In this document: piece by piece, positions 40,025 to 55,662 of the stretch
Numbering within the stretch: position 1 is the first letter of the stretch
Layout: every line of letters starts with the position of its first letter
Assembly: GCF_014873495.1 (NCBI RefSeq)
Contig: NZ_JADBGF010000001.1
Coordinates: 6,758,001 to 6,822,000 of the forward strand
Direction: 5' to 3'
DNA length: 64,000 nt
From: Streptomyces stelliscabiei
Lineage (GTDB): Bacteria; Actinomycetota; Actinomycetes; Streptomycetales; Streptomycetaceae
Translations under genes and position numbers: made by a program
The notes under the pieces: generated by a model
Databases searched by the model: none
Seen by the model: the letters and a program-made list of their open reading frames with translations, nothing else
Told to the model about the DNA's origin: nothing

Positions 40025-40058
40025 GGGAGCTCTCGGTCCTTTCGGGGAGGAACGGCGG

Positions 40059-41483
40059 TCAGGCGCGGGCCAGCCACCGACGCCGCTCGGCGTCGGTGAC
40101 CAGGCTCCGCTCGTGCTCCAGTTCCAGTTGGGCAAGACGGGTGTAGTGCTCGACCACATCGGTTCCGAAGGCTTTCTGCGCGAGGGCGCTGTTCTGGAAG
40201 AGGACGAGGGCGTCGGCCAGGGTGGGCGGGACGGAGGTGCCGCCCACCCGGTAGGAGTTGCCCGTCTCCGCCGGACCGGGGGTGAGTTTCTGTTCGATGC
40301 CGTGGTCGATGGCCGCCAGGACCGCGGACAACGCCAGGTACGGGTTGGCATCCGCCCCCGGCACGCGGATCTCCAGATGGAGACCCTCGCCGTGGCCGAC
40401 GACGCGGACAGCACAGGTGCGGTTGTCGTAGCCCCAGCTGAACGTGGTTGGCGCGAACGAGCCAGGCGTGAACCGCTTGTAGGAGTTGGTGTTCGGGGCG
40501 TAGAGGGGGACCAGCTCCGGCAGGCCGGCGAGCAGGCCCGCGATGGCGTGCCGCCCTGTCTGGGACAGTCCACCGCCGGGCTCGTCGAGCTGGCTGATGG
40601 CCTTCGACCACAGCGACACGTGGAGGTGCAGACCGTTGGCACGGCCGGTTTCCGGGGCTGCCATGAAGGTGGGCGCCAGTCCGGTACGCGAGCCGAGGGT
40701 GCGCACCGCGTGCTTGAAGAGCAGGTGCCGGTCGCAGGCGGTGAGGGCAGGCCCGTACGGGAAGGTCACCTCGACCTGGCCGGGACCGGCCTCCGTCTTG
40801 ATCGCTTCCACAGGCATTCCGGCGCCCGCGAGCGCGCGCTGAAGGCGGCGGAAGAACCGGTCGGAGACCGGATCATGCTCGAGGGCGTAGTCCAGGTTCT
40901 CCGTGGCCACCGGCCGTAGGCCCTGATATCCGGCCTGCTCCGCTTCCCCGTATGTCCCCCTGTAGAGGACGAACTCGGTCTCGATCCCCGCCTTGGGGTG
41001 CAGCCCGTGCCTGGACAGCCGGGTCAGCTGCTGGTGGAGAACCTGGCGGGGCGCGATCTCGATGGGCGTTCCGTCGTGGGTCACGGCGTCGCCGAGCACG
41101 ACGGCGGTACGCGGATGCCACGGCACCACCCGCAGGGTCGACAGAGCCGGCTGCACGGACAGGTCCTGAAAGCCGGTCTCCCACGAACTCAGCGCGAAGC
41201 CGTCCGCCGGGCTCATGTCGACGTCAGTGGCCAGGACGTAGGCACACACCTCGGCGCCGTGGTGCGCGACGCGCTTGAGGAAGTGGTTCGCGTCGTAGCG
41301 CTTCCCCTTCAGCCTCCCCTGCATATCGGGGACGGCGAGCAGCACCGTGTCGATGGCACCCGCTTTGACGAGGTTGCGCAGGTCCGACAAGGAGAACGCC
41401 TTGTCGGGGCGCCCGCTCCGCTCGGGTCCGGAAGCGACAGCCAGACGCGCCACGGTGCTGTCGCCGCTCGTGGTGCCCGGCAT
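40059..41483 (-). CDS. Glutamine-synthetase-like ligase (gamma-glutamyl-amine type)
   Basis: 474 residues. Type I glutamine synthetase motifs are present: GIETEFVLYRG, QVEVTFPYGPAL, NGLHLHVSLW, YAPNTNSYKRF and RVPGADANPYLALSAVLAA. The missing adenylylation loop and the pairing with an APC permease resemble the PuuA/GlnA3/GlnA4 group, which joins glutamate to polyamines or ethanolamine. In this cluster it may glutamylate an imported amine or the pathway product. ATGA overlap with the permease gene. Confidence 0.85.
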   Translation of the reverse strand: MPGTTSGDSTVARLAVASGPERSGRPDKAFSLSDLRNLVKAGAIDTVLLAVPDMQGRLKGKRYDANHFLKRVAHHGAEVCAYVLATDVDMSPADGFALSSWETGFQDLSVQPALSTLRVVPWHPRTAVVLGDAVTHDGTPIEIAPRQVLHQQLTRLSRHGLHPKAGIETEFVLYRGTYGEAEQAGYQGLRPVATENLDYALEHDPVSDRFFRRLQRALAGAGMPVEAIKTEAGPGQVEVTFPYGPALTACDRHLLFKHAVRTLGSRTGLAPTFMAAPETGRANGLHLHVSLWSKAISQLDEPGGGLSQTGRHAIAGLLAGLPELVPLYAPNTNSYKRFTPGSFAPTTFSWGYDNRTCAVRVVGHGEGLHLEIRVPGADANPYLALSAVLAAIDHGIEQKLTPGPAETGNSYRVGGTSVPPTLADALVLFQNSALAQKAFGTDVVEHYTRLAQLELEHERSLVTDAERRRWLARA

Positions 41484-43015
41484 CAGACGACCTCGTCTTC
41501 GTACGCGCTCGTCGAGCGGTCGAAGTGCTGTGCCGGCACTTCGTACGAGCTGCCCTTCGCCCGCCACCACCCCCAGGCCAGGGCGAGGACCACGAGCAGA
41601 GCGACCGGCGCGTAGTTGAAGGTCTCCACCGACACGAAGCCGCCCTTGGCGGGGCGCGTCTGGGGCAGACAGAACAACACCGTCACGAACGCCACCCAGA
41701 GAACCGCGATCGTGCCCACGATCACGCCCCAGTTGCCGAGGTTCCACGGTCCGGGCCGGAACCGCCGGCGGTTCTTGACGCGCAGGAAGATCGGGATCGC
41801 GTAGGCCGGGGTGATGCCGACCACGTTGATGCTGGTGATCGCCGCGTAGGCGACCGGGCTGTACAGGCTCGGCAGGGCCAGCACAGCGGCGCACACCACG
41901 GAGAGCAGCACCGCCATGCGCGGGGTGCCGGTGCGACGGTCCACCCGTCGCCACAGGTGCGAGCCCGGCAGCGCCCCGTCACGCGAGAACGCGAAGACCA
42001 TCCGGCTGGCCGCGGCGGTCTCGGCGTTGCCACAGCACAACTGCGCGACGATGACGACCAGGAGCAGTGCCTTCGCCCCGGCCACTCCGAGCGCGTCCAG
42101 GAAGATCTGCGCCGGCGGCACTCCGGTCGCGGTGCCGACGGTGCCCGTGTAGTCCTGGATCGCGAAGGTGAGTCCCGCCAGCAGGACGAACCCGGCCAGC
42201 CACGACCAGCCTATGGAATGGATGATTCCGCGGGACGCGGACACCTGGGCGTCGGTGGTCTCCTCCGACAGGTGCGCGGAGGCGTCGTAACCGCAGAACG
42301 TGTACTGGGCCAGGAGCAGACCCAGCACGGCCACGTAGAGCGGGCTCGACCAGCCCGTCTTGTTGACGAACTCGCCGAACACGAAGTCGGCGGACCGGTG
42401 GTGGGAGGGCACGATCGCGAGCGCACCGACGATCACCGTGACGCCGGCGAGGTGCCACCAGACGCTGATGCTGTTGAGGATGCTGACCAGCCGGACCCCG
42501 AACAGGTTCAGGGTGAGATGCAGGGCGAGGATGCACAGGAAGATCGCCATGATCCTGCCCGGCGTCGGCTCGAACCCCCACTGCAGGTTGAACAGGGCGC
42601 CCGTGAAGAGCGCGGCCCCGTAGTCGATGCCGGCGATCGCGCCGAGCAGGCCCAGCAGGTTCAACCAGCCCGTGTACCAGCCCCACTTCCGCCCGCCGAG
42701 TTGCTCCGCCTGGTAGTACAGGGCTCCGGAGGTCGGGTAGGCGGAGGTCACCTCGGCGAGCGAGGCGCCGATGAACATGACCATGGCACCGACGACCAGC
42801 CAGCCCCACAGCATCACCGACGGGCCACCGGTGTTCAGGCCGAAGCCGTAGAGGGTCATGCAGCCGGACAGGACGCTGATGACGCTGAAGGAGATCGCGA
42901 AGTTCCCGAACGGCCCCATACGTCGGGTGAGCACGGGCTCGTAGCCCAGTTCGCGCAGGTAGGTGTCATCGGACTTCCGTGGTGTCGCGTGGCGGTTCGG
43001 ACTCAGACGGGACAT
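41483..43015 (-). CDS. APC-family amino acid or amine permease
   Basis: 510 residues with about twelve membrane segments. The APC start FGNFAISFSVISVLSGCMTLYGFGL and the conserved SAYPTSGALYYQAEQL are clear. Typical substrates are amino acids, GABA or polyamines. ATG has GGAGG 10 bases upstream. Its coupling to the ligase gene suggests uptake of that enzyme's amine substrate. Confidence 0.9.
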   Translation of the reverse strand: MSRLSPNRHATPRKSDDTYLRELGYEPVLTRRMGPFGNFAISFSVISVLSGCMTLYGFGLNTGGPSVMLWGWLVVGAMVMFIGASLAEVTSAYPTSGALYYQAEQLGGRKWGWYTGWLNLLGLLGAIAGIDYGAALFTGALFNLQWGFEPTPGRIMAIFLCILALHLTLNLFGVRLVSILNSISVWWHLAGVTVIVGALAIVPSHHRSADFVFGEFVNKTGWSSPLYVAVLGLLLAQYTFCGYDASAHLSEETTDAQVSASRGIIHSIGWSWLAGFVLLAGLTFAIQDYTGTVGTATGVPPAQIFLDALGVAGAKALLLVVIVAQLCCGNAETAAASRMVFAFSRDGALPGSHLWRRVDRRTGTPRMAVLLSVVCAAVLALPSLYSPVAYAAITSINVVGITPAYAIPIFLRVKNRRRFRPGPWNLGNWGVIVGTIAVLWVAFVTVLFCLPQTRPAKGGFVSVETFNYAPVALLVVLALAWGWWRAKGSSYEVPAQHFDRSTSAYEDEVV

Positions 43016-43094
43016 AGATCGGCCTCCAGGACTCGGAGAAGTGGGCAAACTAGACAGGTTCATGCCAATAGGTTGTTGTGGTGGCGGCTGTAGA

Positions 43095-44099
43095 TCACGG
43101 GTGCGGCCCGGCGCGTGGCCTACGGGTACGGGCATAGGAGAGGGACTCGGCACGCGCCCGAAGGAGCAGCGCCTCACCGGGATCCGGCCCAGCGGCTCCG
43201 TCATGCACCGATGCCCATGGCTCACGAGCCGCGTACGAGCCCATCGCCTCGAACACCTCGGCGGCCTCCAGGTATCGGTGTCCCGCCCACAACGCGTATG
43301 CGAGGAGGTGTAGATCGGCCACCGAACGGTGCCCGACGGATGCCTTGTGGAACCAGTCGTGGAAGGCGGTCAGTGTGTAGTCGAGCGTCGACTCCTGCGC
43401 CCACTGCCGCCGCCACAGCGGATCGGCGCGCGACTGTCGTCGCTGCTCGACCTGCGCGTACGCCGGCAGAAGCAGCAGCGGCGATCCGACCGGTCGCTGC
43501 GAGGCCACGGACCGGCCGAAGTCGAAGACCGCGGCCAGCGAGGCGCCTGACGGCCCCTCAAGACCGAGCATGCACTGTGTCACTCGGTGGTAGGCCTCGC
43601 GGTTGTACGGATCACGCTGGTTGACCTCATAGAGCAGTCCCCACGGGCCGCTCGGCAGCATCGGTTCGGCGGACGTCACGCGATGTTCGGGCCGCAGTTG
43701 GCGGGTGTCGACCTGGGCCAGGGCGACAAGACATACCCACGGCACGGGATCGTGGGGCGCACGACGGGCCGCCAGCAGCGCCGCACGCCGCGCTCGCATC
43801 TCGAACTCCAGGGTCTGCGGGTGGCGTTGGCGATGGGCACGCAACGCCCTCTCGACGGCGACACGTACAGCCATCAGCTGCGCGTCGTAGCTGTCGGGCT
43901 CCTCGGCGACCCACACGTCGACGACGTCCGACCGGGCGGCTGCCACGGCCAGCAGCTGGGTGCGGGCCGTGCGCAGTGCCCAGTGCGTACCCGTCTTCCA
44001 GAGCAGCTCCCGCGACTGCCTCCAGCGCCCCGCCTGCAGTTCGACCAAGGCCACACGAAGGTCGTCGTCGTGACCTGCCGGGTGGTAGACGAGACGCAT
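43095..44099 (-). CDS. Helical, TPR-like protein of unknown function
   Basis: 334 residues, mostly helical, with repeated amphipathic pairs (LVELQAGRWRQSRELLW, LLAYALWAGHRYLEAAEVFEAMG) like TPR units. No catalytic motif. Conserved-looking segments such as PWVCLVALAQVDTRQ and GLLYEVNQRDPYNREAYHR suggest a defined fold. It precedes the permease gene by 79 bases on the same strand and may be a scaffold or regulator. Confidence 0.65.
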   Translation of the reverse strand: MRLVYHPAGHDDDLRVALVELQAGRWRQSRELLWKTGTHWALRTARTQLLAVAAARSDVVDVWVAEEPDSYDAQLMAVRVAVERALRAHRQRHPQTLEFEMRARRAALLAARRAPHDPVPWVCLVALAQVDTRQLRPEHRVTSAEPMLPSGPWGLLYEVNQRDPYNREAYHRVTQCMLGLEGPSGASLAAVFDFGRSVASQRPVGSPLLLLPAYAQVEQRRQSRADPLWRRQWAQESTLDYTLTAFHDWFHKASVGHRSVADLHLLAYALWAGHRYLEAAEVFEAMGSYAAREPWASVHDGAAGPDPGEALLLRARAESLSYARTRRPRAGPHP

Positions 44100-44310
44100 C
44101 AGAGTCCCTCGGAGGGAACCGTGTGCCGTCGGCAAGCGGGGTCGGGCCAGTTCCTCAGCTGCGGGCGGACCGTGGGGGTTAACGTGCTCTGCGAGCTGGA
44201 CGGGAAGGTCATCGGGAGCCTCTGGCAGGTTGGAGGGAGGGCCGTGAAACGCATGAAGGCGGACCGTCGGCCGAGCGGGGGGATGGGCCTCGCACGCCGG
44301 TTTCAGCTCG

Positions 44311-44505
44311 CTAGAAACGGATCTGTCCGATCATGTCGGCGACGCCGGTCATGAACCGGTTGATGCTCGGGGCCATGGAAGTACTCGCCAGGAAGAACCC
44401 AAAGAGCACACAGACGATCGCGGGACCGGGTTTCACGGACTTGCTGCGAATCAAAACGACCACGACGATGCCGAGCAGCACCACGAAGGAGATACTCAGA
44501 GCCAT
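44311..44505 (-). CDS. Small membrane protein
   Basis: 64 residues with two membrane helices (SISFVVLLGIVVVVLI and GPAIVCVLFGFFLAST) joined by a basic loop (RSKSVKPG) and a short soluble tail. Coupled by ATGA to the preceding gene. Such proteins often accompany Streptomyces plasmid genes, but here it is the second gene of the cluster II minus arm. Confidence 0.7.
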   Translation of the reverse strand: MALSISFVVLLGIVVVVLIRSKSVKPGPAIVCVLFGFFLASTSMAPSINRFMTGVADMIGQIRF

Positions 44506-44945
44506 CAGGAGGCCACTTCCTCCGCGGGCCCTCGCCGCTCCCGGCGAGCCTGACTCAGGGCTCGGCGCAGAGCATCGGGCCGTGTCAGCGATCGCGGGCC
44601 TTGGGGGAAGACGTGCCAGTGCATCCCCGGAGGCGTCGTGCTCTCGGCGGACGGCACGACGACGTGGCACTTCTGCCCCAGCGCGACAGTACCCGGTTCC
44701 TCCCAGCGGGCCGCGGTGCCCACGGGAACCAGGAAGTACAGCCGGGGCTCCGGACCTCCGTGGTCCAGGATCACCGGGCCTACCGGTTCGTCACCCTCGC
44801 CGAGGATCTCGATCGCGCGTCGGCCCACGGCCTCCACGGCGCGTACGGCATCCCACCACTCCCCCGCCGAGCACAGCTCGGGCTCCTCGCCGATAGGCAT
44901 CCAGCGCGGCGGGTTCGCACGGGCTGCGGGATTGTCGTCGGACAT
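44505..44945 (-). CDS. Hypothetical protein heading the cluster II minus arm
   Basis: 146 residues, soluble, beginning MSDDNPAARANPPRWMPIGE. The middle (EPRLYFLVPVGTAARWEEPG) is beta-rich; the end is basic (LSQARRERRGPAEE). No motif recognised. It is the first gene after the palindromic operator at 45,007 and overlaps the small membrane protein gene by ATGA. Confidence 0.6.
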   Translation of the reverse strand: MSDDNPAARANPPRWMPIGEEPELCSAGEWWDAVRAVEAVGRRAIEILGEGDEPVGPVILDHGGPEPRLYFLVPVGTAARWEEPGTVALGQKCHVVVPSAESTTPPGMHWHVFPQGPRSLTRPDALRRALSQARRERRGPAEEVAS

Positions 44946-45006
44946 GGAAAAGGCCTCCTCACCACTGCGTGTGAAGAGACCATTCCATTCAGCAAGGTGC
45001 CCTGCG

Positions 45007-45049
45007 CGGACAGTCTGTCCGTGGGGTCCGTTCGCCAAAGTCCTTGACT
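45007..45049 (-). promoter_or_regulatory. Operator A of cluster II
   Basis: Perfect palindrome CGGACAG-T-CTGTCCG at 45007-45021, 62 bases upstream of the first gene of the minus arm. On the minus strand a GTCAA box lies 27 bases before it, as in operator B. A regulator dimer probably binds here. Confidence 0.8.
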
Positions 45050-45054
45050 GAGGC

Positions 45055-46293
45055 TCAGGTTGTGCTAATGCCCGTCCAACTACCAAACGCGGAAAGCTCG
45101 TTGGAGGGATGGGCGTCCATCCTCAGCAGTGCGGCGGTCGTCTCGCGAACGGACGGGTGGAACCGCGTGTGGTTGGGTGCGACCTTCCGTGCGCGCTTGA
45201 GGTCCGCGAAGGCACCCTCCCGGTCGTTCTCCGCGAGCTTGGCGGACGCCACGTCGATGAAATGGTGGCTCGACCGCTCGCCGACAGTCGTGATGGGCGG
45301 CGCCCACTCGCCGCCGGGAACCGAAGACCACTCGGTGAGGCGGGCGAGGGCCTGCTCCGTGTCGCCCGTGTCGATCATCGCGTGCACCTCGTGGATGCGG
45401 ATGTTCGTCGGGCCGAAGGACATCTCGTACGCCAGGGAGTCGCGGTTGCCAGCCATGGCCGCGACCTGCTCCGCCTCCCTCAGGTAGTCGTCGGCGCGAT
45501 CGGCGTTGTTCTCGCGGGCTTCAAGAACGGCAAGCTTCAGCAGTAGCGCGCCGTCGACGGCGAGCGAGTCCTCCGTGAAGGAGCGTTCGGGCTGGAACCG
45601 CTCCAACTCGGTCCGCAGTCCGAGGAGCTTGCGGCGCGCCGGCGAGTACGCGCCCTGGCGCAGCATCGCTCCGGCGACGAGGTAGCCGGCGGTGAACTGC
45701 AGCAGCGGATCGCCGGAGCGGTCCGCTGCCCAACGGACGCGCTCCAACGCCGTGTTCGACAGATCGTGGTGACCCATCTTGTGGGCGAGGGAGTTAACGG
45801 CGCGATAGGCGCGCGCCAGGTGCCAGAACGCCTTGGCCCGGTCGCCGTTGTCGCCGCCGAGGGCGACGTGCGTGAGTTCGGTGATGATCGGCGGCAGCAG
45901 GGGGCCCATCGGGGCGTAACGGGCGTCACGGCGCAGGGCCGCCACCTGGTCGACCTCCGAGGCGAGCACGGGAAGCGCCCGCGGAGCGACATCCAGGTCG
46001 TCGGGGCTGTCGTAGCAGAGCAGGAGACGGCGGAGCTCGGGTATGACGGCGTGGACGCCGTCCTCCGCCTCCGGCTCGCCGTAGTACGGCTGGCCGGTCA
46101 GGACCTCGGGGCCGAAGCGCAGGGCCTTGGCGAGAGCCAGCACCAGCGAGGGTGAAGCCTTGCGCGCGCCCGACTCCAACTTCTGCACGTAGCTCGGGGA
46201 GACCGCGATCTTCTGTGCCAGTTGGGCGGCAGACAGTTTCCGTGTCCTACGAGCGATACGGAGACGGTCTCCCAGCGTCAGGTTTTCACTCAT
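45055..46293 (-). CDS. XRE regulator with TPR-like C-terminal domain
   Basis: 412 residues. The HTH is at about 6-62 (LGDRLRIARRTRKLSAAQLA, IAVSPSYVQKLESGARKASP). The rest is helical repeats (LARAYRAVNSLAHKMGHHDL, LLKLAVLEARENNADRADDY, DTGDTEQALARLTEWSSV) like TPR sensor domains. Proteins of this layout, related in shape to the PlcR/Rgg group, bind small ligands or peptides. It stands at the centre of the cluster II regulon and is the best candidate for binding the three CGGACA-N3-TGTCCG operators. Confidence 0.8.
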   Translation of the reverse strand: MSENLTLGDRLRIARRTRKLSAAQLAQKIAVSPSYVQKLESGARKASPSLVLALAKALRFGPEVLTGQPYYGEPEAEDGVHAVIPELRRLLLCYDSPDDLDVAPRALPVLASEVDQVAALRRDARYAPMGPLLPPIITELTHVALGGDNGDRAKAFWHLARAYRAVNSLAHKMGHHDLSNTALERVRWAADRSGDPLLQFTAGYLVAGAMLRQGAYSPARRKLLGLRTELERFQPERSFTEDSLAVDGALLLKLAVLEARENNADRADDYLREAEQVAAMAGNRDSLAYEMSFGPTNIRIHEVHAMIDTGDTEQALARLTEWSSVPGGEWAPPITTVGERSSHHFIDVASAKLAENDREGAFADLKRARKVAPNHTRFHPSVRETTAALLRMDAHPSNELSAFGSWTGISTT

Positions 46294-46712
46294 CGGTGGA
46301 CCTGTCCCTTCGCGATGAAGCACTTGGATCAGAGTACGGATAATGTCCAAGCCTGCGCCCTTGGTCGCCAACTGTTAACAGAGTCGATGGCCCTGCGCCC
46401 ACGACGTGGATCCGCGGCACGGGCCCGAAGCGGTTTGTCGCTCCCTCCTGACCCTCCGATCGCATGAACGAATCGAGGCATATCGCCACGAAGTGGGCGA
46501 GAGATGAGTAGGTTTGTCGCCATCTTGTCAATAGGTCGGCGTCGAAATACCTACGGACAGTTTGTCCGCGCGAATTCCGCAAGTGCCCGAAACCCGCCTT
46601 CGGTATCCGGCTGCAGACAGTAGCCAAGCGCTCACGTCGACATGATGGACGGGCGTGACCCACGTACGCTCGCCGCTCCAGAGTGGTCCCGGTCAAGGGC
46701 AAGGAGTCGGGA
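46294..46712. promoter_or_regulatory. Control region between the XRE-TPR and HAD genes, with operator B
   Basis: Gene-free. On the plus strand TTGTCA (46524-46529), a 17-base spacer and TACCTA (46547-46552) form a plausible promoter, directly followed by the operator CGGACA-GTT-TGTCCG at 46553-46567. Binding there would cover the transcription start. The leader to the HAD gene is 145 bases. The XRE-TPR promoter must lie nearer 46,300-46,400. Confidence 0.75.
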
Positions 46713-47441
46713 GTGGCTGAAGCCGAACGGTCCCTCGTGTTGTGGGACATCGACCGCACGCTGCTGTACGTCGGTGAGATCGATCGGCAGGTCTACCGCG
46801 AGGCCTTCGCCGAGATCGTTGGGCGCCCCGCGGAGCGCCTTCCAGCCCGGGGAACTGGCGTCACCATGCCCCTCGCGATCCGATCCCTGCTCCTGGACAA
46901 CGGCGTGTCGGCATCGGACGTCCCCCAACTGCTGCCGCGCCTGGTCGAACTCCTGCCGCAACGCCTCGCCGCGCATGAGGAAAACCTGCGCGAGCAGGGC
47001 GTCCTCATGCCCGGTGCCGTGTCGGCGCTGAAGGCGGTGCACGAGCAGACGCATTGCGTGCCGACCGTCGTCACAGGGAACCTCAAGCCCAACGCACTGT
47101 TGAAGCTCGAAGCGTTTGGCCTCGACGACTTCCTGGACACCGAAATCGGCGGGTACTCCTCCGACGACGAGCACCGTCCTGCTCTCGTCGCCGTCGCGCA
47201 AAAGCGAGCTCAGGCCAAACTCGGGGCAGCCTTCACTCGATCCAACACCGTCATCATCGGAGACTCCCTCGAAGATGTCCGCACAGGAGTTGAAGGCGGC
47301 GCTTCGGTGATTGGAATCGCGTCCGGCAAGACCACGGCTCGTGAACTGGCCTCAGCGGGCGCCGATGTGGTGCTCGACAGTCTCGAGGACGTACCGCAGC
47401 TCTTGGAGGAGATCACGACAGTGATCTCCTCCAAGAGCTGA
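46713..47441 (+). CDS. HAD-family phosphatase
   Basis: 242 residues from GTG with AAGGAG eight bases upstream. Motif I LVLWDIDRTLLY, motif II TVVTGN, a late Lys (VAQKRAQAKL) and motif IV VIIGDSLEDVRTG are all present. Close in sequence to the HAD protein at 32,507-33,199, with the same divergent position beside an XRE regulator. The C-terminal codons lie inside a 20-bp perfect hairpin. Confidence 0.85.
   Translation: MAEAERSLVLWDIDRTLLYVGEIDRQVYREAFAEIVGRPAERLPARGTGVTMPLAIRSLLLDNGVSASDVPQLLPRLVELLPQRLAAHEENLREQGVLMPGAVSALKAVHEQTHCVPTVVTGNLKPNALLKLEAFGLDDFLDTEIGGYSSDDEHRPALVAVAQKRAQAKLGAAFTRSNTVIIGDSLEDVRTGVEGGASVIGIASGKTTARELASAGADVVLDSLEDVPQLLEEITTVISSKS
47397..47440 (+). terminator. 20-bp perfect hairpin at the end of the HAD gene
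   Basis: Arms of 20 bases (left 47397-47416, right 47421-47440, beginning CAGCTCTTGG and ending CCAAGAGCTG) around the loop GACA. It ends inside the stop codon. No T run follows. Likely a terminator, unusual in being translated through. Confidence 0.75.
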
Positions 47442-47458
47442 CGGTCAATCAATCATGG

Positions 47459-48103
47459 CTACGACTCCCCGCGCTGCCGCGTGCTCTCGTCTCCCCGCCG
47501 TTCCACGGCTCCTCCACCGGAGCGCGACTGGCCGAGAAGCGTTCGCGGTCGGGCCTCGGGCCGGTGTGCGGGGTGCCCGAGGGAGTTGCGCAGCCGGATG
47601 CCGTTGAACCCGCACGTGCTGGAGGTGATGGTCTCCCAGTACGGCCACAGGATGTCCAGAACCCGCAGCTGGATGCCGGCCTCGGCGTGCAGGGCAAGGA
47701 GGTCACCGACGGGCTCGGGTGGGCCCAGCGGCTGGACGGGTTCCTCCGCCACGTGGGCGCGTGGGACGGGCTCCCCGATGGGTCGGAAGGGTGTGGAGTC
47801 GAACCGGTAGGCGTAGAGGCGAACGTCGCGGATCTCCTCCAGCCAGTCGTACTCGATCGCGTGTACTCGATCTCCCCCGCCCGGGCCGATGATCCGCTCG
47901 CGGTCCGACGGGGACGTGTCGGGTGTCATCCATGCCATCGCCCGGGGACACTGCTTGGGGAACCAGTAGTCGGGGGAACGGACCGCGTCGACGGCCCAGA
48001 CAAAGGCCCCCCGGTCCTTCGACGTCGGGGAGGCGCGCGGGACGAAGCGGGTGATCGTGGGATCCTCGGAGAAGTGCAGTAACTGTCCAGGCTCTGGCCG
48101 CAT
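47459..48103 (-). CDS. DUF6886-like protein
   Basis: 214 residues, ATG at MRPEPGQLLHFSEDP. The pattern FSEDPTITRFVPR, AFVWAVDAVRSPDYWFPKQC and AIEYDWLEEIRDVRLYAYRF matches a small family common in Streptomyces, with no known function. The last 35 residues are Arg/Gly-rich and look like extension beyond the normal end (FNGIRLRN), possibly from loss of the original stop. Confidence 0.7.
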   Translation of the reverse strand: MRPEPGQLLHFSEDPTITRFVPRASPTSKDRGAFVWAVDAVRSPDYWFPKQCPRAMAWMTPDTSPSDRERIIGPGGGDRVHAIEYDWLEEIRDVRLYAYRFDSTPFRPIGEPVPRAHVAEEPVQPLGPPEPVGDLLALHAEAGIQLRVLDILWPYWETITSSTCGFNGIRLRNSLGHPAHRPEARPRTLLGQSRSGGGAVERRGDESTRQRGES

Positions 48104-48238
48104 CGGGGCATCGTAAGTCCCCACGCGCGGTACTCGCCTTCCGCGTTTCCAGGCGCACCACTGCGACGCACCAGAACGAGCCGCCGGGTAACCGGTACAG
48201 GAAGCGCCGAGCGTCAGGCGCAACCAACGAGATCCGCT

Positions 48239-49735
48239 TCAACGACTCCGGGCTGGGCCCCTCCATCGTGATGGGCGGCAGGGTGCGGATCGATGGCAGG
48301 GCGACCGCACCATGGACGCGCGTCCCCGTAGGAGATCGTTGAGCACGCGCACCGGAGAAGTCGGGGACAGGACCAGTCGGGCGTCGAGCGCTGCCTCCCA
48401 CTGCCCGGTCAGCCCGACCATCAGTCGTTTGCGCATGCCGGGCGTGACGTGGGCGTAGCGCGCCGAGACGGAGCCGTCGATGTGGCCCATCCTCTGGTCC
48501 ATCAGGACCCGCTCAGTGCCGAGGTCCTCCATCACGGTCCGGTGGGTGTGGCGGAGGCCGTGGGGTGTGAGGCCCTTGGCGATCGGGAGCCAGCAGGCCT
48601 CGGCCCGATCGCTGGCCGCGCGGCCTCGGGCCGGGACGCCGGGCCACGGCTCTCCGAGCAGGGGTACGGGGCGGGCCGGCTGCGGAGCCTTCTTCGGGTA
48701 CCAGCCGGAGACCGCAGGGGTGAACAGCCACGTCGCGAAGCCGTTTCGGCGCCAGTGGGCGGCGTGCTCTGGCACCGCACCGCCGCGCACGAATCCCAGG
48801 TCTGCGATGGCCTGCTCCACCCTCATCCGCTTGGCTTCGGTGACGCGGTCGGGGTGGTTGAGGACGTTGGACACCGTACCCGCGGAGACTTCTGCATGGC
48901 GTGCGACGTCGACGAGTTTCGCGCCTTGGTGGCCGCTGCCGCGAGCCGCGCCCTGCCCGCGGAAAACATAGGTCTTGCCGTGACACAGGCAGGGTCTCGG
49001 CTTCGTGCGGGTGACGTGGTTAGCGACCAGGGCCGACAGCCAGTCCATCGAGTCGATGGTCCGGTAGCTGTCGTCCTTGGGCGGGCAGCGCACCAGCTCG
49101 CCGGTGTCGAGTTCGTACAGCTGCCACTCGACACGGACGGAGCTCGGGCGGGCGAATTCCGTTTCCAGGCCGACGATTTCGCCCCAACGCATGCCGGTGT
49201 ACCCCTTCAGGACGACGGCGACGAACTCGTCATCGCGGCCGGCGAGCAGGGCGGCGCGTTCGGCGGTCAGTAGGATGCCGAGCGCGTCGGTGACGACCTT
49301 CTCCGGGCCGCGGTTGCGGGAGCGGCCGGCGCGCTTGCCGCGTCCGCGCCGTCTGGCAGCTGGGTTGGTCGTGATCAAACCCTCGTAGATCGCGTCTTCG
49401 AAGATCACGTGGAGTGTCGAGCGCCAGGTTCTGACACTGGAGGCCGCGTAGACGGCCTTCTCCTTTTTCTCCCACAGGTCGACGTCCGTGTGCAGGATGC
49501 CGGCGAGCGCCTTGTCCTCGAAGGCTGGGAGCAGGTGCTCCTCGATGTGGCGCTTGTAGTTCTGCATGGTCGAGGCGGCCAGGTCCTGTGCCTCGTACCA
49601 GCGGTTCGCGTATTCGCCGAAGGTCTCCTGGCCGAGTGCCGGGTCGGGCCAACCACCGCCCCGGCCCTTGCTCTCGGCGACGGCCGCGGCCCGTCGCACC
49701 TCGCCCTCGTCCCTGGCGATTCCGAGCGTGAGCAC
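48239..49735 (-). CDS. Tyrosine recombinase with inserted LacI-type HTH
   Basis: 498-residue integrase. Catalytic residues are present: Arg183 (YTGMRWGEIVG), His392-x-x-Arg395 (PHGLRHTHRT), His418 (MGHIDG) and Tyr427 (SARYAHVTPGM). Between boxes I and II sits a LacI-family HTH (LVDVARHAEVSAGTVSNVLN, VTEAKRMRVEQAI). GTG follows GGGAGGAGG. The N-terminal arm-binding domain seems short or missing and the last 20 residues look like read-through, so one end may be damaged. No excisionase gene or tRNA target is seen next to it. Confidence 0.85.
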   Translation of the reverse strand: MLTLGIARDEGEVRRAAAVAESKGRGGGWPDPALGQETFGEYANRWYEAQDLAASTMQNYKRHIEEHLLPAFEDKALAGILHTDVDLWEKKEKAVYAASSVRTWRSTLHVIFEDAIYEGLITTNPAARRRGRGKRAGRSRNRGPEKVVTDALGILLTAERAALLAGRDDEFVAVVLKGYTGMRWGEIVGLETEFARPSSVRVEWQLYELDTGELVRCPPKDDSYRTIDSMDWLSALVANHVTRTKPRPCLCHGKTYVFRGQGAARGSGHQGAKLVDVARHAEVSAGTVSNVLNHPDRVTEAKRMRVEQAIADLGFVRGGAVPEHAAHWRRNGFATWLFTPAVSGWYPKKAPQPARPVPLLGEPWPGVPARGRAASDRAEACWLPIAKGLTPHGLRHTHRTVMEDLGTERVLMDQRMGHIDGSVSARYAHVTPGMRKRLMVGLTGQWEAALDARLVLSPTSPVRVLNDLLRGRASMVRSPCHRSAPCRPSRWRGPARSR

Positions 49736-50255
49736 CTACGTCCTCCTCCCGCGCGAACTTCATGGCTCACGCAGGCTCCCCGCGGAACTCCAAGGTCAAC
49801 TCGACGCGCCGGAGAAGATCACGCGAAAAGACCGCCCAAGGTCACACGAAGGGTGCGGAGATCAGCCGAGCAGGTTTGCTGGCGGTTTCCAGCACTCTCT
49901 GCCTTCGGCCTGCCGAGTTCGTCCAGGCAGCCCGATAGGACCTCGTCGCGCCTGCGGAGCGCATTCGCGCGGGGTGGCGGGCGTACGCCCGAGCAATCCC
50001 TACCGGCCCGAAGCGATCATTCAGGACCTCGGTAACCCTCAACGCTCCGGGAAACAAAGCCTGTTGCTGTCAATAGGTCGTCGGCGAATTCCTGCGGACA
50101 CTTTGTCCGCTCGTCGCACTCGCGGAATGGAATCGTCTCTTCACGCTCCGTTGCGCGAATCCCCGACGGACCGCACCACCAATGCGCGACCCGGGTGCCT
50201 CTCTACCCGAGCCATCGCTCTCCCCCCGCCTATCCCGCACTGGAGGAGTCTTCCC
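49736..50255. promoter_or_regulatory. Upstream region of the cluster II plus arm, with operator C
   Basis: No gene seen in about 520 bases. CTGTCAATAGGTCG (50067-50080) repeats the promoter sequence of operator B, and CGGACA-CTT-TGTCCG lies at 50095-50109. The leader to the glycosyltransferase ATG is 146 bases, nearly the same as for operator B. Confidence 0.75.
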
Positions 50256-51617
50256 ATGGCAACCCGTACGCGCAGTTCAGACGACGTAGCCTCCGTTCCG
50301 ACCGCCAACACGGTCCCCCTCCAGCGTCAGCGAGGTACCGAGGGAACCGTCGAGCCGGCCGCAACCACGATCTCGCCGAAGATCGCCGTCGCACTGCATG
50401 ACGGCTACTACGGGTGCACCTCGGGCACGGGCTTCAGCAACAGGGCCTTCCTTGAGGTACTCGCGCGGACGCTGCCGCGAGGACGCCTCCTGGTCATGCC
50501 CGTTCACATCTCACGCTCCGACCCCAGTTACGACCCCGTGTGGGGAGCCGAGACGGAGGAAATGCTGCGGCAGGCCGGGGCCAAGGTCGTTCCGGTTCCG
50601 GGTGGCCGAGCGGCGACCGCCACCCTCGCGGGCTGCGAAGCACTGTGCGAGCAGGTCACGGAAGCCGCCCGGGAACGTCTCGCCGACGCGCCCATGGCCC
50701 AACTGATCGGCCTGGATATCCCCTTCCTCGGGCTCGGCCCCTATCGGCGCGCCGATGATCCGTTCAGCCTCCTTCTCCTGCCTCGGTCGACGAGCGAACT
50801 CGCCTCCCCGGAGGACCGGCGACGCATCCGATGGGAGCACAAGGGGCTGACAGCGGCAGTGCGTGGCGGTGCACGCGTAGCCTCCATCTCGCACCACATG
50901 CGCGGCCATCTTGAGCAGGTCTACGGCGTCCCGCGGCACGTGGTGGTCGATCTCCCCAACGGCCTGCTCCTGAGCGACCACGAGGACATGGCCCCGGCTC
51001 CGCTGCCGCCGCAGGCCGAAGCGGGGTTCCTGCTGGCCATGGGCCGGGCGGTGGAGAGCAAGGGCTTCGAGGACCTGCTTGAGGCCGTCCGCATCCTCGG
51101 TATGCAGGGCGAACGGGTGCCGCACCTCCTACTCGCGCCCACGACGCACACAGAGACTCTGACCGGCTACCAGCAACGACTCCAGACGATGGTCCGCGAC
51201 TACGCGATCGACGCGACGTTCCTGCCGCGGTTCTCCCCTCAGTACCGCTCATGGCTGCGGAGCCCGGCCCTCCGTGGAGTCGTGGTGCCCTCCCGAGCCG
51301 AACCGTTCGGGAGGATTCCTCTCGAAGCCTTCGCCTCGGGGGCCGCGCCGGTAGTGGCGACTCGGGCGGGCGGGCTCATGGAGACCGTCGTCGACGGGGT
51401 GACCGGGTTCACGGCGGAAGCTGGTGACCCCATGGACCTCACCCACGCGATCAGGCGGGCGCTTCACATCAGCGCCCAAGAACGTGAGCAGATGCGTGAA
51501 CGCGGCAGGGCCCTGCTCATGGCCCGGCACGACTACGAGGCCACGATCCACTCCTACCTGCGCCAGTACGTCCCTTGGGCGATGGCCCTCAGCGCCTCCT
51601 CGAGGAGTGGAGCGTGA
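50256..51617 (+). CDS. GT4-family glycosyltransferase
   Basis: 453 residues of GT-B fold; ATG 7 bases after GGAGGAG. N-lobe: VALHDGYYGCTSGTGFSNR. C-lobe with donor-binding motifs: FLLAMGRAVESKGFEDLLEA, VVPSRAEPFGRIPLEAFASG (the E-x7-E pair) and VATRAGGLMETVVDG. Retaining transfer from an NDP-sugar. First gene of the eight-gene plus arm; GTGA overlap with the next gene. Confidence 0.85.
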   Translation: MATRTRSSDDVASVPTANTVPLQRQRGTEGTVEPAATTISPKIAVALHDGYYGCTSGTGFSNRAFLEVLARTLPRGRLLVMPVHISRSDPSYDPVWGAETEEMLRQAGAKVVPVPGGRAATATLAGCEALCEQVTEAARERLADAPMAQLIGLDIPFLGLGPYRRADDPFSLLLLPRSTSELASPEDRRRIRWEHKGLTAAVRGGARVASISHHMRGHLEQVYGVPRHVVVDLPNGLLLSDHEDMAPAPLPPQAEAGFLLAMGRAVESKGFEDLLEAVRILGMQGERVPHLLLAPTTHTETLTGYQQRLQTMVRDYAIDATFLPRFSPQYRSWLRSPALRGVVVPSRAEPFGRIPLEAFASGAAPVVATRAGGLMETVVDGVTGFTAEAGDPMDLTHAIRRALHISAQEREQMRERGRALLMARHDYEATIHSYLRQYVPWAMALSASSRSGA

Positions 51618-52606
51618 CAACCACCGCGCTGGTCGCCATCAATTCCCCTTACCCTTTCTGGCGGTTATCCGATCGGCACGCCGGACAGTTACGGTCCGCC
51701 TTTCCCGACGTCCGCTTCCTGATCGCCCACGAGCACGACGTCCCCGTCGAGATCCGCACCGCTGACGTCTATTTCGGCTGGTCCTTCGACGCCGAGTGGT
51801 TGAAGACCTCCCCACGGCTCCGCTGGACGGCCACCCCGTCGGCCGGCGTCGATCACTGGCCGGCCGCCGCGCTCGATGCCGCGGGCATCACGCTCACCCG
51901 CGGGTACGGCTACCACGGGAGGCCGATGGCCGAGCACGCGATCGGCCTGCTTCTCGGATTCTCGCGGGGCCTGTTCACGAGTGCACGACTTCAGACCTGG
52001 TCCGTCTGGTGGAAGGACCTCCTCGCAGACAGCTTCTTCGACCTCTACGGCGAGACGCTCACGATCGTCGGCTGCGGCTCCGTCGGCCTCCGCCTCGCGG
52101 AGGTGGCGCAGGCATTCGGAATGCATGTCATAGGAGTACGCCGCAGCGCTCCTCGCTCCGAACCCGACGGGATCGAATGGGTGCCGGCACACCGCGTTCG
52201 TGAAGCACTCCCGCGCTCACGCGCCGTCGTCAACCTGCTTCCCGCGACCGACGAGACGCACGGCTTCTTCAACGAGAGCACCTTCAAGGCGTGCCACCCC
52301 GGGACGGTCTTCATCAACCTAGGGCGGGCCAGCACAGTCGACCACGACGCGCTCCTCGGCGCCCTCGATCAAGGCCCGCTGGTCGGCGCCGCCCTCGACG
52401 TACAGCCGCGTAAGCCGCCAGCGCTCGACGATCCGCTCCGCCACCACCCGCGGATCGTGCTCACACCGAAAAGCGCCGTCTTCAGCCACGCCTACATGGA
52501 CCAGGCGGTCGCCTTCTTCGTCGACAACCTCCGGCTTCACCTCGCCGGCCAGCCCCTCAACGGTGCTGTCACCCCAACCCACGGAGGGACACATGCCCCC
52601 CACTGA
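51614..52606 (+). CDS. D-2-hydroxyacid-dehydrogenase-like protein lacking catalytic His and Glu
   Basis: 330 residues. The NAD-binding loop IVGCGSVGLRLAEVAQAFG and catalytic Arg (INLGRASTVD) are intact. In the place of the usual EPL and TPH motifs it has PRKPPALDDP and LTPKSAVFS, so the catalytic Glu and His are both Lys. It may therefore bind NAD(H) but act differently, or use Lys as the proton donor. Confidence 0.8.
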   Translation: MTTTALVAINSPYPFWRLSDRHAGQLRSAFPDVRFLIAHEHDVPVEIRTADVYFGWSFDAEWLKTSPRLRWTATPSAGVDHWPAAALDAAGITLTRGYGYHGRPMAEHAIGLLLGFSRGLFTSARLQTWSVWWKDLLADSFFDLYGETLTIVGCGSVGLRLAEVAQAFGMHVIGVRRSAPRSEPDGIEWVPAHRVREALPRSRAVVNLLPATDETHGFFNESTFKACHPGTVFINLGRASTVDHDALLGALDQGPLVGAALDVQPRKPPALDDPLRHHPRIVLTPKSAVFSHAYMDQAVAFFVDNLRLHLAGQPLNGAVTPTHGGTHAPH

Positions 52607-53714
52607 CCAGCAGTCGTCCAGGAACGACCTGTTGCGGCGGTTCGCCGAGTCGGGCCGGAACCATCCCTACCTGGCATTCACTCTCAACTCGATCTGCAAT
52701 CTCGACTGCGTCTTCTGCAAGCCACGGTGCATGCCCGACTACGGGCACAAGGACAAGACGCTCACCGTCTCCGACTACGCGGGCATCGCGAACGAGGCCG
52801 GGCTCTGGGGCATCCGCAAGGCGCACTGCTCAGGCGGGGAGCCGACGCTGCGTGCCGACATCCTCGACATCATCGGAGCGCTCTCCGACGGGCTCGGCGA
52901 CGAGGCGACCGTCGGCATGACCAGCCACGGCAACCTGCGCCGCGGCCTGACCGTGGACGAGTTGCACAATGCCGGGCTCACGTACCTGAACATCAGTCTG
53001 CACAGCCTCGATCCCGCACGGTCTACCGAGATCATGGGCGGCGGCGACCCACGAGTCGCCCGCGCAACGATCGGCCGCGCACTCGAACTCGGCCTCAAAG
53101 TCAAGATCAACTGTGTGCTCCAGCGGTCGTACCTGGACGACGCCTTCGGTGTCGCTGAACTCGCCAAGCGACTCCCCATCGCCGTACGGCTGATCGAACT
53201 GCAGCGCATCGGACCGGCGGAGGCGCTGTTCCCCACGGAGTTCGTGTCTGAGGCGGAGGTCCGCGAACGCCTCCACGCCTGGTTCGAGAAGGCCGGCGAG
53301 ATCTCCCGGACCGAGTTGGGAGTGCGAAGCCCGGGCCAGTACCTGCGGCCGCCCGGCTGGGCGGGCTCCATCGGGTTCATCTCCAACTCCTCCTGCGCCA
53401 CCTGCTCCGACGCCAACCGCATCAAGGTCACGCCCACCGGCATCGCCCGGCCCTGCATCCTGCACAACCGCGACATCGCCCTGAAGCAGCACCTCGCGGA
53501 CGGCACCATGGCCGACGCCTACGCCCACCTCTTCAACGCCATGCTCGAACGGGACAGCAACGAGGCCTGGCAGGGCTTCCACTACGTCGACTACGACCTT
53601 CGCTGGGACCGCATGGAGCGACCGCAGGGCGTGCCCGTCCTTCCCTTGCTGCCCGTGGCCAGCGGTACGGGTGGGGGCTGCTCACTTCGCCGACCCGGAG
53701 GTGAATCCGAGTGA
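52593..53714 (+). CDS. MoaA-like radical SAM enzyme
   Basis: 373 residues. Radical SAM cluster SICNLDCVFCKP (Cys35, 39, 42), the SAM motif HCSGGEPTLR, and a C-terminal second cluster (SSCATCSDANRIKV, then ARPCILHN), just as in MoaA. In MoaA this second cluster binds GTP. The substrate here is presumably another nucleotide or a peptide. ATG after GGAGG; overlaps the previous gene by 14 bases. Confidence 0.85.
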   Translation: MPPTDQQSSRNDLLRRFAESGRNHPYLAFTLNSICNLDCVFCKPRCMPDYGHKDKTLTVSDYAGIANEAGLWGIRKAHCSGGEPTLRADILDIIGALSDGLGDEATVGMTSHGNLRRGLTVDELHNAGLTYLNISLHSLDPARSTEIMGGGDPRVARATIGRALELGLKVKINCVLQRSYLDDAFGVAELAKRLPIAVRLIELQRIGPAEALFPTEFVSEAEVRERLHAWFEKAGEISRTELGVRSPGQYLRPPGWAGSIGFISNSSCATCSDANRIKVTPTGIARPCILHNRDIALKQHLADGTMADAYAHLFNAMLERDSNEAWQGFHYVDYDLRWDRMERPQGVPVLPLLPVASGTGGGCSLRRPGGESE

Positions 53715-54811
53715 CCACGGCTCGTTCCACCGCGTCGTACGCGCAGCTCGGCGTCGTCTACGCCGAGCAGTTGGCCGCCCAGGACGTCACCGCGAGCATG
53801 CTCACGCACAAGTGGCAGGCCGACGACCTCATCGCACCGCACTCGGACATCGACATCCGCGTCGTCCTCGACGAGACCCCTGCCTCATGGTGGGAGTGGA
53901 ATGAGCGGCTGGCCACCGCCCACCACCGGGCGGTACTCCTGGATCCATCCCACAGCCGACTGCTCGAACATCCACCCGGGTTCGCGTTCACTACGGGCGA
54001 GCTCGATCGGAACCAGGTGTCACCAGCCGAGACCTCCACCTGGAGCCTGGTCACGGGCAGCGCGGCCACTCTCGGGCGGTGGCAGTCCCGTGCGCAGATG
54101 ATGCCCTGGAGCCGCGCGGACGAGAGGTTCTATCGCGGGATCCTCGACGCACGGATCGGAGGCCGCTACCAACTCGACAAGGACAGCGCCGACAACGTCC
54201 ACCACGACCTCGACGGCTACCGAAGGCACTGCGTCGCCTGGCACTACGTGGCGCCGTGCTGGTTCGCGTCGGCGGCCCTCGCCACCCGTACCCGCGGCCC
54301 CGGGAAGACGGCAGCCCTCAGCCAGTGGCATCCTGGCGAACTCGAGGTCCTTGCCGAGGCGATCCTCCGCCTGTCCGCCACGTCCTCGGATCCGGAGCCT
54401 TCTCCCACGCAGCTACTGCGCTCGGCCCACGTCGCCGTGGACGCCGTACTGCGACGCACACCGCGCCCCAGGCCGCTGCCGGAGGGGTCGGAAGCGGAGG
54501 CGGAGGCCTGGACCACCACCGCCGGCATGCTCCGCGTACGTGCCGCACGCTGGATCTACTACCTGGATCCTCCGCCGGAGACCGCGACCGGCTACTTGAT
54601 CGCTCGCGAGGAGAAGGAACTCCGTTCCGCCAGGAACACCTTGACCCGCCTCGCCGACCGGACCTCCGGTGACGACGCGCTGCTCGTGAAGGCCATGACG
54701 GAGCTGCTGCCACCAGGCCCGACCACGGCGAGCACCCTTCACGACCTCCTCGCCCTGTGGAGTCGTCACCGCTCCGTCGTCGAGGACTTCCTCTCCGCCC
54801 ACTCCACGTGA
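53711..54811 (+). CDS. Nucleotidyltransferase-like protein
   Basis: 366 residues. Near the N terminus, APHSDIDIRVVLDE (Asp46, Asp48) resembles the metal site of minimal DNA polymerase beta-type nucleotidyltransferases, though the GS motif is not clear. The rest is helical (LRSAHVAVDAVLRRTPRP, LRSARNTLTRLADRTS). It may attach a nucleotide to the product or to its carrier. GTGA overlap with the radical SAM gene. Confidence 0.6.
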   Translation: MTTARSTASYAQLGVVYAEQLAAQDVTASMLTHKWQADDLIAPHSDIDIRVVLDETPASWWEWNERLATAHHRAVLLDPSHSRLLEHPPGFAFTTGELDRNQVSPAETSTWSLVTGSAATLGRWQSRAQMMPWSRADERFYRGILDARIGGRYQLDKDSADNVHHDLDGYRRHCVAWHYVAPCWFASAALATRTRGPGKTAALSQWHPGELEVLAEAILRLSATSSDPEPSPTQLLRSAHVAVDAVLRRTPRPRPLPEGSEAEAEAWTTTAGMLRVRAARWIYYLDPPPETATGYLIAREEKELRSARNTLTRLADRTSGDDALLVKAMTELLPPGPTTASTLHDLLALWSRHRSVVEDFLSAHST

Positions 54812-54826
54812 CCAAAGGGGCTCTCC

Positions 54827-55639
54827 ATGACGTCCTCCGTGCTGTCCAACGCGCAAAGGACCCTCAAGACCGCGAAAATCAAGATCACGACCAAGTGCAA
54901 CCGCCACTGCGACTTCTGCATCTTCGCCGAAGGCGGCCAAGGCGAGAACATGCCGCTGGACACGTTCAGGCAGGTCCTCGACCGCCTCGGACAGATCCCA
55001 TTCCGACAGCTGCACATCAACGGCGGAGAACCCACCGTCCACCGCGACTTCAGCGAGCTCAGCGGCCTGGCCCGTGACTGCTTCCCGGAGCAGATCATGG
55101 TGCTCGGCTCCAACGCGATCACCCTGGCCCGCAACGAGCGCCTCCTCCAGGCGACCCTCGCGCACTACGACCAAGTCCTGATCGGCTGCGACGAGGAGCA
55201 CGACAACTACGACGAGGTCAGCGCCGTCGTCCCCGTACTCCGTGACGCCGGAAAGACCGTCGTCATCAACAGCGTGCTGGAGGCCATCGCCCCCGACCGC
55301 CTCAGCCAACTGGCCGCCCTGTGCGACGAGTACGGCGCCATCCACGTCACCAACCACGTCCACCACATCGACGTCGGCCAGCCCGCCAACGATCTCGGCG
55401 GCCTCTGCGACCGCAACGTCGACCAGCACCTCATGATCGAGGTCGACGGCGACTGCTACCGGTGCTTCAACGCCATGGCCAAGAACGACAGCGAGTTCAC
55501 GGTCTGGGACGACGACTTCGCCACCAAGGTCTTCGCGCCGCGCCGCGAGCACTACGACTTCTGCCTGAAGTGCCATGAGTACAGGGACTCGGGCCTTCAG
55601 GTCGTCCCCTCCCTCGCCCATCGCACGGCTTCCGTCTGA
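54827..55639 (+). CDS. Radical SAM enzyme with SPASM-like C-terminal cysteines
   Basis: 270 residues. TTKCNRHCDFCIFAEG (Cys24, 28, 31), LHINGGEPTVH, then a Cys set near the C terminus (GGLCDRN, GDCYRCFNAM, FCLKCHEY) that could hold an auxiliary cluster. Short for a SPASM protein. ATG with GGGGCTC-type spacing after the previous gene, 15 bases away. Confidence 0.85.
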   Translation: MTSSVLSNAQRTLKTAKIKITTKCNRHCDFCIFAEGGQGENMPLDTFRQVLDRLGQIPFRQLHINGGEPTVHRDFSELSGLARDCFPEQIMVLGSNAITLARNERLLQATLAHYDQVLIGCDEEHDNYDEVSAVVPVLRDAGKTVVINSVLEAIAPDRLSQLAALCDEYGAIHVTNHVHHIDVGQPANDLGGLCDRNVDQHLMIEVDGDCYRCFNAMAKNDSEFTVWDDDFATKVFAPRREHYDFCLKCHEYRDSGLQVVPSLAHRTASV

Positions 55640-55662
55640 CCACCCTCTTCCCGGAGGTCCCC

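Follow-up and report, generated by a model that had tools for sequence, protein, structure and literature searches.

A putative HTH-TPR regulator and its shared palindromic operator in a gene neighbourhood of Streptomyces stelliscabiei

Three palindromes around a regulator gene

In a 64,000-nucleotide stretch of the Streptomyces stelliscabiei genome (assembly GCF_014873495.1, contig NZ_JADBGF010000001.1, positions 6,758,001 to 6,822,000; hereafter the window), a gene for an XRE-type helix-turn-helix (HTH) protein of 412 amino acids lies on the minus strand (45055..46293) among copies of the palindrome CGGACA-N3-TGTCCG. A pattern search of the window located three exact copies within 5.1 kb, as a preliminary description of this DNA had claimed, and chance would give a mean of 0.01 per shuffle, with none of 100 dinucleotide shuffles having three. 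Its positions for the first and third copies (45007 and 50095) hold, while the second begins at 46554 rather than at 46553. Operator A (45007..45021, CGGACAGACTGTCCG when read on the minus strand) lies 33 nucleotides past the stop codon of the XRE gene and ahead of a minus-strand gene for a protein of 146 amino acids, here called A1 (44505..44945). Operator B (46554..46568, plus strand, CGGACAGTTTGTCCG) lies upstream of the divergent XRE gene, some 260 bp from its start, and precedes a plus-strand HAD-type phosphatase-like gene (46713..47441; GTG 46713 is assumed as its start, but GTG 46683, from which the domain scan was run, is also possible). The first gene after operator C (50095..50109, plus strand, CGGACACTTTGTCCG) encodes a GT4-type glycosyltransferase (50256..51617, plus strand). 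The whole 10.5 Mb genome holds six exact copies of the pattern, against none for the reversed-pattern control. Outside the window, the copies at 4598238 and 7110332 resemble terminator stems, and at 6752080, 5.9 kb left of the window, GTCAA abuts the palindrome instead of standing 21-22 nucleotides off.

Several promoter-like elements surround the operators. In the direction of transcription, GTCAA was said to precede each of them, and it does so at a distance of 22 nucleotides at A (45044..45048, minus strand, a candidate -35 element), 22 at B (46527..46531, plus strand) and 21 at C (50069..50073, plus strand). Reading of the DNA also confirmed the stretch common to B and C, TGTCAATAGGTCG, and the sequence TTGTCA-N17-TACCTA directly adjoining operator B, whose TACCTA hexamer (46548..46553, plus strand) is, from this reading, a candidate -10 element. 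The hexamer is exact in 8 of the 13 relatives that carry a B site. The leaders of the HAD and glycosyltransferase genes are near-equal, as described, with 144 nucleotides to GTG 46713 and 146 to ATG 50256. A further element, absent from the preliminary description, is the box (G/A)TGGAAT(S)GT, which stands 17-18 nucleotides downstream of operators A and C; site B of the window and of its close relatives is without it.

The XRE protein scored above the curated Pfam cut-offs for HTH_31 (50.0 bits, cut-off 27) and HTH_3 (40.4 bits, cut-off 23), and the Pfam scan returned the HTH alone, with no tetratricopeptide repeat (TPR) match at E 0.001. Its structure was modelled from an alignment of 22 rows of the 25 wanted (L133 was left out because of a stop codon, and L126 and L145 were also out), and the model, with a mean pLDDT of 89, consists of the HTH helices followed by 17 more helices. 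In a Foldseek search with this model, PlcR with DNA and peptide ranked first (E 1.9e-3), and PrgX, ComR, Rgg2 and NprR ranked 7, 10, 12 and 13, interspersed with eukaryotic TPR proteins. VIA-align gave Z scores of 17 for Rap, 16 for NprR, 15 for PlcR, 17.8 for MalT domain III and 19-20 for eukaryotic TPR proteins. The predicted fold, an N-terminal HTH and then a TPR-like superhelix, is that of the RRNPP-type regulators and backs the name XRE-TPR under which the protein had been described.

Co-inheritance of the palindrome with the regulator gene

We searched 295 Streptomyces genomes, including that of the window, for orthologs of the XRE gene at a cut-off of E 1e-60 and found one in 23 of them, 19 of these at 76% identity or more. 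The composite of GTCAA, 18-24 nucleotides and the operator gave 33 matches in 18 of the 295 genomes: 30 came from genomes that have an XRE ortholog (15 of the 23), and the other 3 from three of the 272 that lack one. For the operator followed after 16-22 nucleotides by TGGAATSGT there were 24 matches, all in genomes with an XRE ortholog (17 of the 23), and the 272 others had none. Two of the three outcomes that would have spoken against the preliminary description thus failed to appear: the composite is not common, and in relatives it is conserved at the orthologous places. In all 18 relatives with an XRE ortholog of at least 76% identity (window excluded), the palindrome stands just after the XRE stop codon, in 14 of them exactly and in 4 with one mismatch; in four more distant relatives (36-57% identity), the palindrome in this form was not found.

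We also counted genes of the window in the neighbourhoods of these 18 relatives, which are 18 of 22 fetched loci, L038-L041 (XRE at 36-57%) being left out. Each locus spans about 9 kb on each side, so distant genes are undercounted in the tally. Among the 18 window genes sought, the XRE gene and A1 were the only ones present in 18 of 18, with A1 lying about 1.5 kb away rather than adjacent in L036. The LuxR-type gene was present in 6 neighbourhoods, the open reading frame (ORF) resembling LacI-type HTH and integrase sequences in 2, the HAD gene in 4 and the glycosyltransferase gene in 4.

A scan of the GTDB genome collection provided a wider set of 53 loci, mostly from Streptomyces, with two from Kitasatospora and one from Wenjunlia. 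Here, the palindrome was required to have the core ACA-N3-TGT and at least two of the three outer pairs, 25-60 nucleotides past the XRE stop codon. It was found in 45 of the 53 named relatives, with all three outer pairs in 39, while the success rate of mononucleotide shuffles was 0.09%. Among the 45, the left outer triplet of 30 is CGG and that of 7 is CCC, while the remaining 8 have others. TGT is followed by C in each of the 34 relatives whose XRE residues 43-46 read ARKA, ARRA, KRKA, KRKP or SRKA ([AKS]R[KR][AP]), and by G in the remaining 11, of which 10 have DRNP, DRSP, DRTL, QRVV or SRTP and one has no readable N-terminus. These residues come right after the modelled third helix (33-41), the recognition helix. 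Past the XRE stop codon of L129, a Kitasatospora locus, we noted a longer palindrome, CCCCTGGACAGTTTCTGTCCAGGGG, in which the gap between ACA and TGT is five bases instead of three.

These counts bear on the question of which protein binds the palindrome. The LuxR-type protein (39524-40120), the LacI-like HTH encoded in 48239-49735, or a regulator from outside the cluster might do so, with XRE-TPR merely linked. The first two genes do lie within the cluster, but they occur in just 6 and 2 of the 18 operator-bearing neighbourhoods, and the operator arms differ in parallel with residues of the XRE HTH domain; we consider this scenario very improbable. The co-occurrence, the parallel between arms and HTH residues, and the constancy of the neighbourhood together lend good support to the earlier proposal that XRE-TPR is the controller. 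The sequence comparisons indicate that the three start points with a common docking site are very probably a genuine regulatory switch that has been inherited together with the regulator gene lying between them.

The constant neighbour A1 and its leader hairpin

A1 has no Pfam match of its own, and one of 32 members of its family matches PF09250 (Prim-Pol) at 1.8e-4. Its model (pLDDT 86) is weakly like Prim-Pol in fold: the best VIA-align match was the Prim-Pol domain of pRN1 ORF904, with a weak Z score of 5.3, a root-mean-square deviation of 3.9 and 117 aligned residues; further Z scores were 5.0 for ORF904 and 3.7 for CAPP. Foldseek found nothing for this model at E 0.001. The family is widespread, with 1 to 13 copies in each of 60 of 61 genomes. 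From the list of these copies, 20 paralogs were picked by hand, and 19 of them had no palindrome within 260 nucleotides upstream, so that the palindrome accompanies the A1 copy beside the XRE ortholog. A distant XRE-TPR relative (26% identity) lies near 2 of the 20. One match of the GTCAA-operator composite in a genome without the XRE gene (G025; L057 / L220), CGGACATCGTGTCCG, stands about 35 nucleotides before the start of an A1 paralog, and it was taken as probably due to chance because 19 of the 20 paralogs are without such a palindrome. Site A together with A1 is the constant target, and the preliminary picture needs to be widened accordingly.

The leader of A1 contains a hairpin (44946..44986, minus strand) in which GGAATGGTCTCTTCAC pairs with GTGAGGAGGCCTTTTCC; its 3' arm holds the Shine-Dalgarno sequence GAGGAGG and ends beside the ATG. 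The predicted energy is -25.7 kcal/mol, with a z score of -3.3. A stem-finder score of at least 22 was obtained for the A1 leaders of 49 of the 53 relatives. In a fold test against mononucleotide shuffles, which covered 49 of the 53 loci without selection for a stem (L135, L138, L143 (no A1 within 400 nucleotides) and L146 were out), z was below -2 in 42 of 43 distinct ortholog leaders, compared with 1 of 20 paralogs. Covariation was assessed in 32 rows, namely the window and 31 of the 53 loci, after leaving out 16 near-identical loci, the stemless L126, L135, L143 and L146, and L113 and L124, which carried a risk of misalignment. Pairing was found in 93.5% of cells against a shuffle mean of 86.5, a level reached by none of 500 shuffles, although this figure is biased upward because the rows were selected for the stem. 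Double-changed cells numbered 49 (shuffle mean 15.5) and the covariation score was 0.378 (shuffle mean 0.247), each unreached in 500 shuffles, with the caveat that kinship among sequences can also produce values exceeding shuffles. When the partners were slid by 1-3 columns, pairing fell to 43-55%.

An inverted repeat can serve equally as a binding site in DNA or as a transcription attenuator, and the dyad after site A might be a protein's site or an attenuator rather than an RNA hairpin that blocks ribosomes. Its arms are strong, the stem-finder giving 22 positions in both L131 and L133. However, G-U pairs are frequent, with 11 G-U at pair 4-46 and 12 U-G at pair 10-40, which favours RNA over a DNA dyad; furthermore, the 3' arm spans the Shine-Dalgarno sequence and reaches or includes the start codon, and no U-tract follows. 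We regard the DNA-site or attenuator explanation as unlikely. The conserved hairpin is predicted to hide the start signal of A1, which is an RNA-level feature that B and C are without.

Several related possibilities were tried and rejected. Sequestration of the Shine-Dalgarno sequence at B, at C and at a fourth, weaker site (see below) was dismissed, the folds around the starts having z scores of -0.9, -1.1 and +0.3 against -3.6 at A, and in a consensus fold of six C leaders the start region lay outside the common stem. The clade-2 hairpin was also sought as a dispersed repeat, but the pattern GATCCCCTCA-N2-18-TGAGGGGATC occurred in none of 61 genomes, in a narrow test that misses even the hairpin of G008, one of these 61. 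Rfam at its gathering score returned tRNA only in the six of the 53 relatives' loci that were scanned, and at E 1 it gave two eukaryotic-type matches in the window region 44400-50600, neither of them on the A1 leader.

The minus-strand genes that follow A1 (40059..44135), which we infer to be co-transcribed with it, encode an unknown protein (43095-44135), an amino acid permease (41483-43225) and a glutamine-synthetase-like protein (40059-41519); all three lie beside A1 in 12 of 18 relatives. A small ORF (44311-44670) overlaps the end of A1; the C-terminal part of its product is membrane-segment-like, and matches to its last 69 codons were obtained in 10 of 18 relatives. In L132 (7326-8147), the A1 homolog (274 amino acids) seems to consist of two A1-like domains in tandem.

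Proposed control and the variable targets

The explanation that we favour, and that we hold to be likely on the sequence evidence, is that the HTH-TPR regulator binds the palindrome and represses the neighbourhood promoters A, B and C by occluding their starts, with A1 as the core target and B and C as variable ones. Within its own neighbourhood, the regulator (45055-46293) would occupy the 15-bp palindrome at three promoters. The palindrome is located where transcription should begin, about one promoter length after GTCAAG, and a bound dimer would most likely block RNA polymerase: should GTCAAG belong to a -35 element, transcription would begin inside the palindrome. A ligand held in the TPR superhelix would release the regulator. 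Target A, behind the regulator gene, would form the constant core and encode a small protein, possibly Prim-Pol-like in fold, with a ribosome-binding site that may be hidden in a hairpin. Targets B and C are less constant and would, in different species, bring different metabolic genes under the same switch. The sequences themselves show the sites with their spacing and conservation, the co-occurrence with the regulator gene, the parallel between arms and HTH residues, the predicted fold and the covarying hairpin; binding, repression as opposed to activation, the start sites, the ligand, the extents of the operons, which the preliminary description had put at some 20 genes over 24 kb, and the direction of acquisition are what we infer here.

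Of the 45 named relatives with the palindrome, 33 have GTCAA 21-22 nucleotides ahead of it, and in the tabulated rows it reads GTCAAG, the same in both clades. Since it is constant in both, its reader should be something other than the variable surface of the XRE protein, most simply a sigma factor. GTCAAG as a second XRE half-site was rejected, because it is constant though the operator arms vary. As a reversed -35 element (CTTGAC), it had no properly placed -10 in the few rows examined by eye. The pattern GGAAT-N16-GTTG, present at A, at C and at some B sites, was considered as a promoter of the extracytoplasmic function type; this was dropped because GTTG would place the start within the A1 Shine-Dalgarno sequence and because distant relatives have one arm of the hairpin in this stretch.

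It might also be supposed that XRE-TPR is an activator, with (G/A)TGGAAT(S)GT as an extended -10, the operator centred near -41 and GTCAAG as an accessory site. The fixed spacing of 17-18 nucleotides between operator and box at A and C, the presence of GTGGAA at the fourth site, the persistence of the box where GTCAA is lost (L033-L036) and the lack of a consensus -10 upstream of the operator would all fit. On the other hand, in relatives at 53-60% identity this stretch is mostly GGCACGAT(Y)CCC, the 5' arm of the covarying hairpin; if the hairpin acts as RNA, it has to be part of the transcript, and the starts would then lie upstream of it. In addition, the box is lacking at site B, both in the window and in its close relatives. 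Activation thus seems rather unlikely to us, and repression by start occlusion remains the explanation that we prefer.

A number of observations weigh against that explanation. First, there is no common -10: operator A is preceded by ACCCCA, operator B by TACCTA and operator C by TTCCTG. Site A of L033-L036, where the downstream box persists, is also without GTCAA, and so, at the distance expected, are 12 of the 45 relatives with the palindrome, including the whole group L117-L121, L128, L130, L144 and L147. The lack of a common -10 and the missing GTCAA cases count against a simple promoter. Second, 8 of the 53 loci failed the palindrome test (L108, L109, L129, L135, L138, L142, L143 and L146), several of them with one half-site damaged or with another spacing. 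Third, the split in arms and residues lies mainly between two clades and may therefore reflect few events. Fourth, two of five covariation measures for the hairpin were not above shuffles: doubly changed pairs numbered 6 (shuffle mean 4.2, 61 of 500 shuffles) and additional pair types 18 (shuffle mean 17.5, 245 of 500). Finally, no Foldseek match of the XRE model reached E 0.001, the best being 1.9e-3, and all-helical repeats score easily, the highest Z scores belonging to eukaryotic TPR proteins.

The proposed regulator resembles known systems in part. Like the RRNPP regulators PlcR, PrgX, ComR, Rgg2 and NprR of Firmicutes, it has an N-terminal XRE HTH and a predicted TPR superhelix, and RRNPP-type regulators have operators near the regulator gene. 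It differs in being actinobacterial, in matching solved relatives by sequence in the HTH only, and in having a possibly Prim-Pol-like protein as its constant neighbour; a gene for a cognate signal peptide was not seen, though no search was aimed at one. The XRE profile matches the HTH of several solved structures, the phage 434 and P22 repressors (cI/c2 type) among them, and 434 operators also pair ACA with TGT; in the present operator, by contrast, ACA and TGT make up the inner core, 3 bp apart, and the arms outside it differ from relative to relative. The Prim-Pol domains of pRN1 ORF904 and CAPP are the best structural matches of A1, with weak Z scores, and A1 has just 146 amino acids. The NsdA family comprises negative regulators of antibiotic production in Streptomyces, and its model NF053720 matches XRE residues 246-394 weakly, at 19.6 bits against a cut-off of 75; by this score, XRE-TPR is not a member. 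NsdAsr of S. rimosus represses its targets and shifts promoter DNA, and the terms 'palindrom' and 'inverted repeat' are absent from the main text of that report (PMC12243394). XRE regulators in Streptomyces clusters are treated in general in PMC12224297. No account of the present operator was found in the open-licence literature. A cluster-situated HTH-TPR regulator with its own operators is a known type; what is added here is the RNA-level feature on the constant partner gene. The HTH-TPR design also raises the question of which signal is sensed. A bolder and quite improbable proposal is a portable cassette with two locks: a PlcR/ComR-like switch with a dedicated small ligand or peptide would lock transcription, the hairpin would lock translation, a catalytically dead partner of Prim-Pol/RRM fold would act on the hairpin or on the regulator, and each species would attach metabolic genes of its own choice to copies of one promoter.

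The targets of B and C appear to vary. When up to one mismatch is allowed, 13 of 18 relatives carry a B-type site, and operator C stands ahead of the orthologous glycosyltransferase gene in L020, L021, L023 and L025. Judged by eye, the first ORFs after B or C sites in ten other species are NUDIX-like (L026), HAD-like (L027 and L030), radical-SAM-like (L028), epimerase-like (L029) or a glycosyltransferase (L025), and are of other kinds or unclear in L020, L023, L024, L031 and L032. B and C sites thus seem to precede differing genes across species, with different metabolic genes put under one switch; a single regulator-operator pair may have taken on different genes from one Streptomyces to another. 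In the window, the glycosyltransferase gene is followed by further plus-strand genes (51575..58981) for a 2-hydroxyacid dehydrogenase, a MoaA-like radical SAM protein, an unknown protein of 366 amino acids, a radical SAM protein, a carbamoyltransferase, an HD_4 protein and a second glycosyltransferase, which from their spacing would be co-transcribed with it. The operator and its proposed regulator are testable and offer a probable route to switching on this uncharacterised carbamoyltransferase/radical-SAM/glycosyltransferase cluster.

A fourth, weaker site that the preliminary description did not include, GTCAA-N21-TGGACAGATTGTCCT, lies on the minus strand 2 kb past the window (window coordinates 66045-66085), ahead of a minus-strand gene that is HATPase-like by eye (65416-65979). 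It has two mismatches and is one of three such matches when reverse readings are excluded; with up to three mismatches, there were 65 matches against 28 in the control, so the site is not significant by score alone. It keeps GTCAAGG and GTACCTG, GTGGAA is present too, and a copy was found in 1 (G201) of 11 relatives searched and was absent in the 10 others. On the kept flanks and the G201 copy, this promoter may belong to the set.

Two further genes of the neighbourhood are of note. In the minus-strand ORF at 48239-49735, tyrosine-recombinase pieces flank the LacI-type HTH. Beside the plus-strand cluster lies a glutamyl-tRNA-synthetase-like gene (58993-60432), possibly a second copy or a biosynthetic enzyme.

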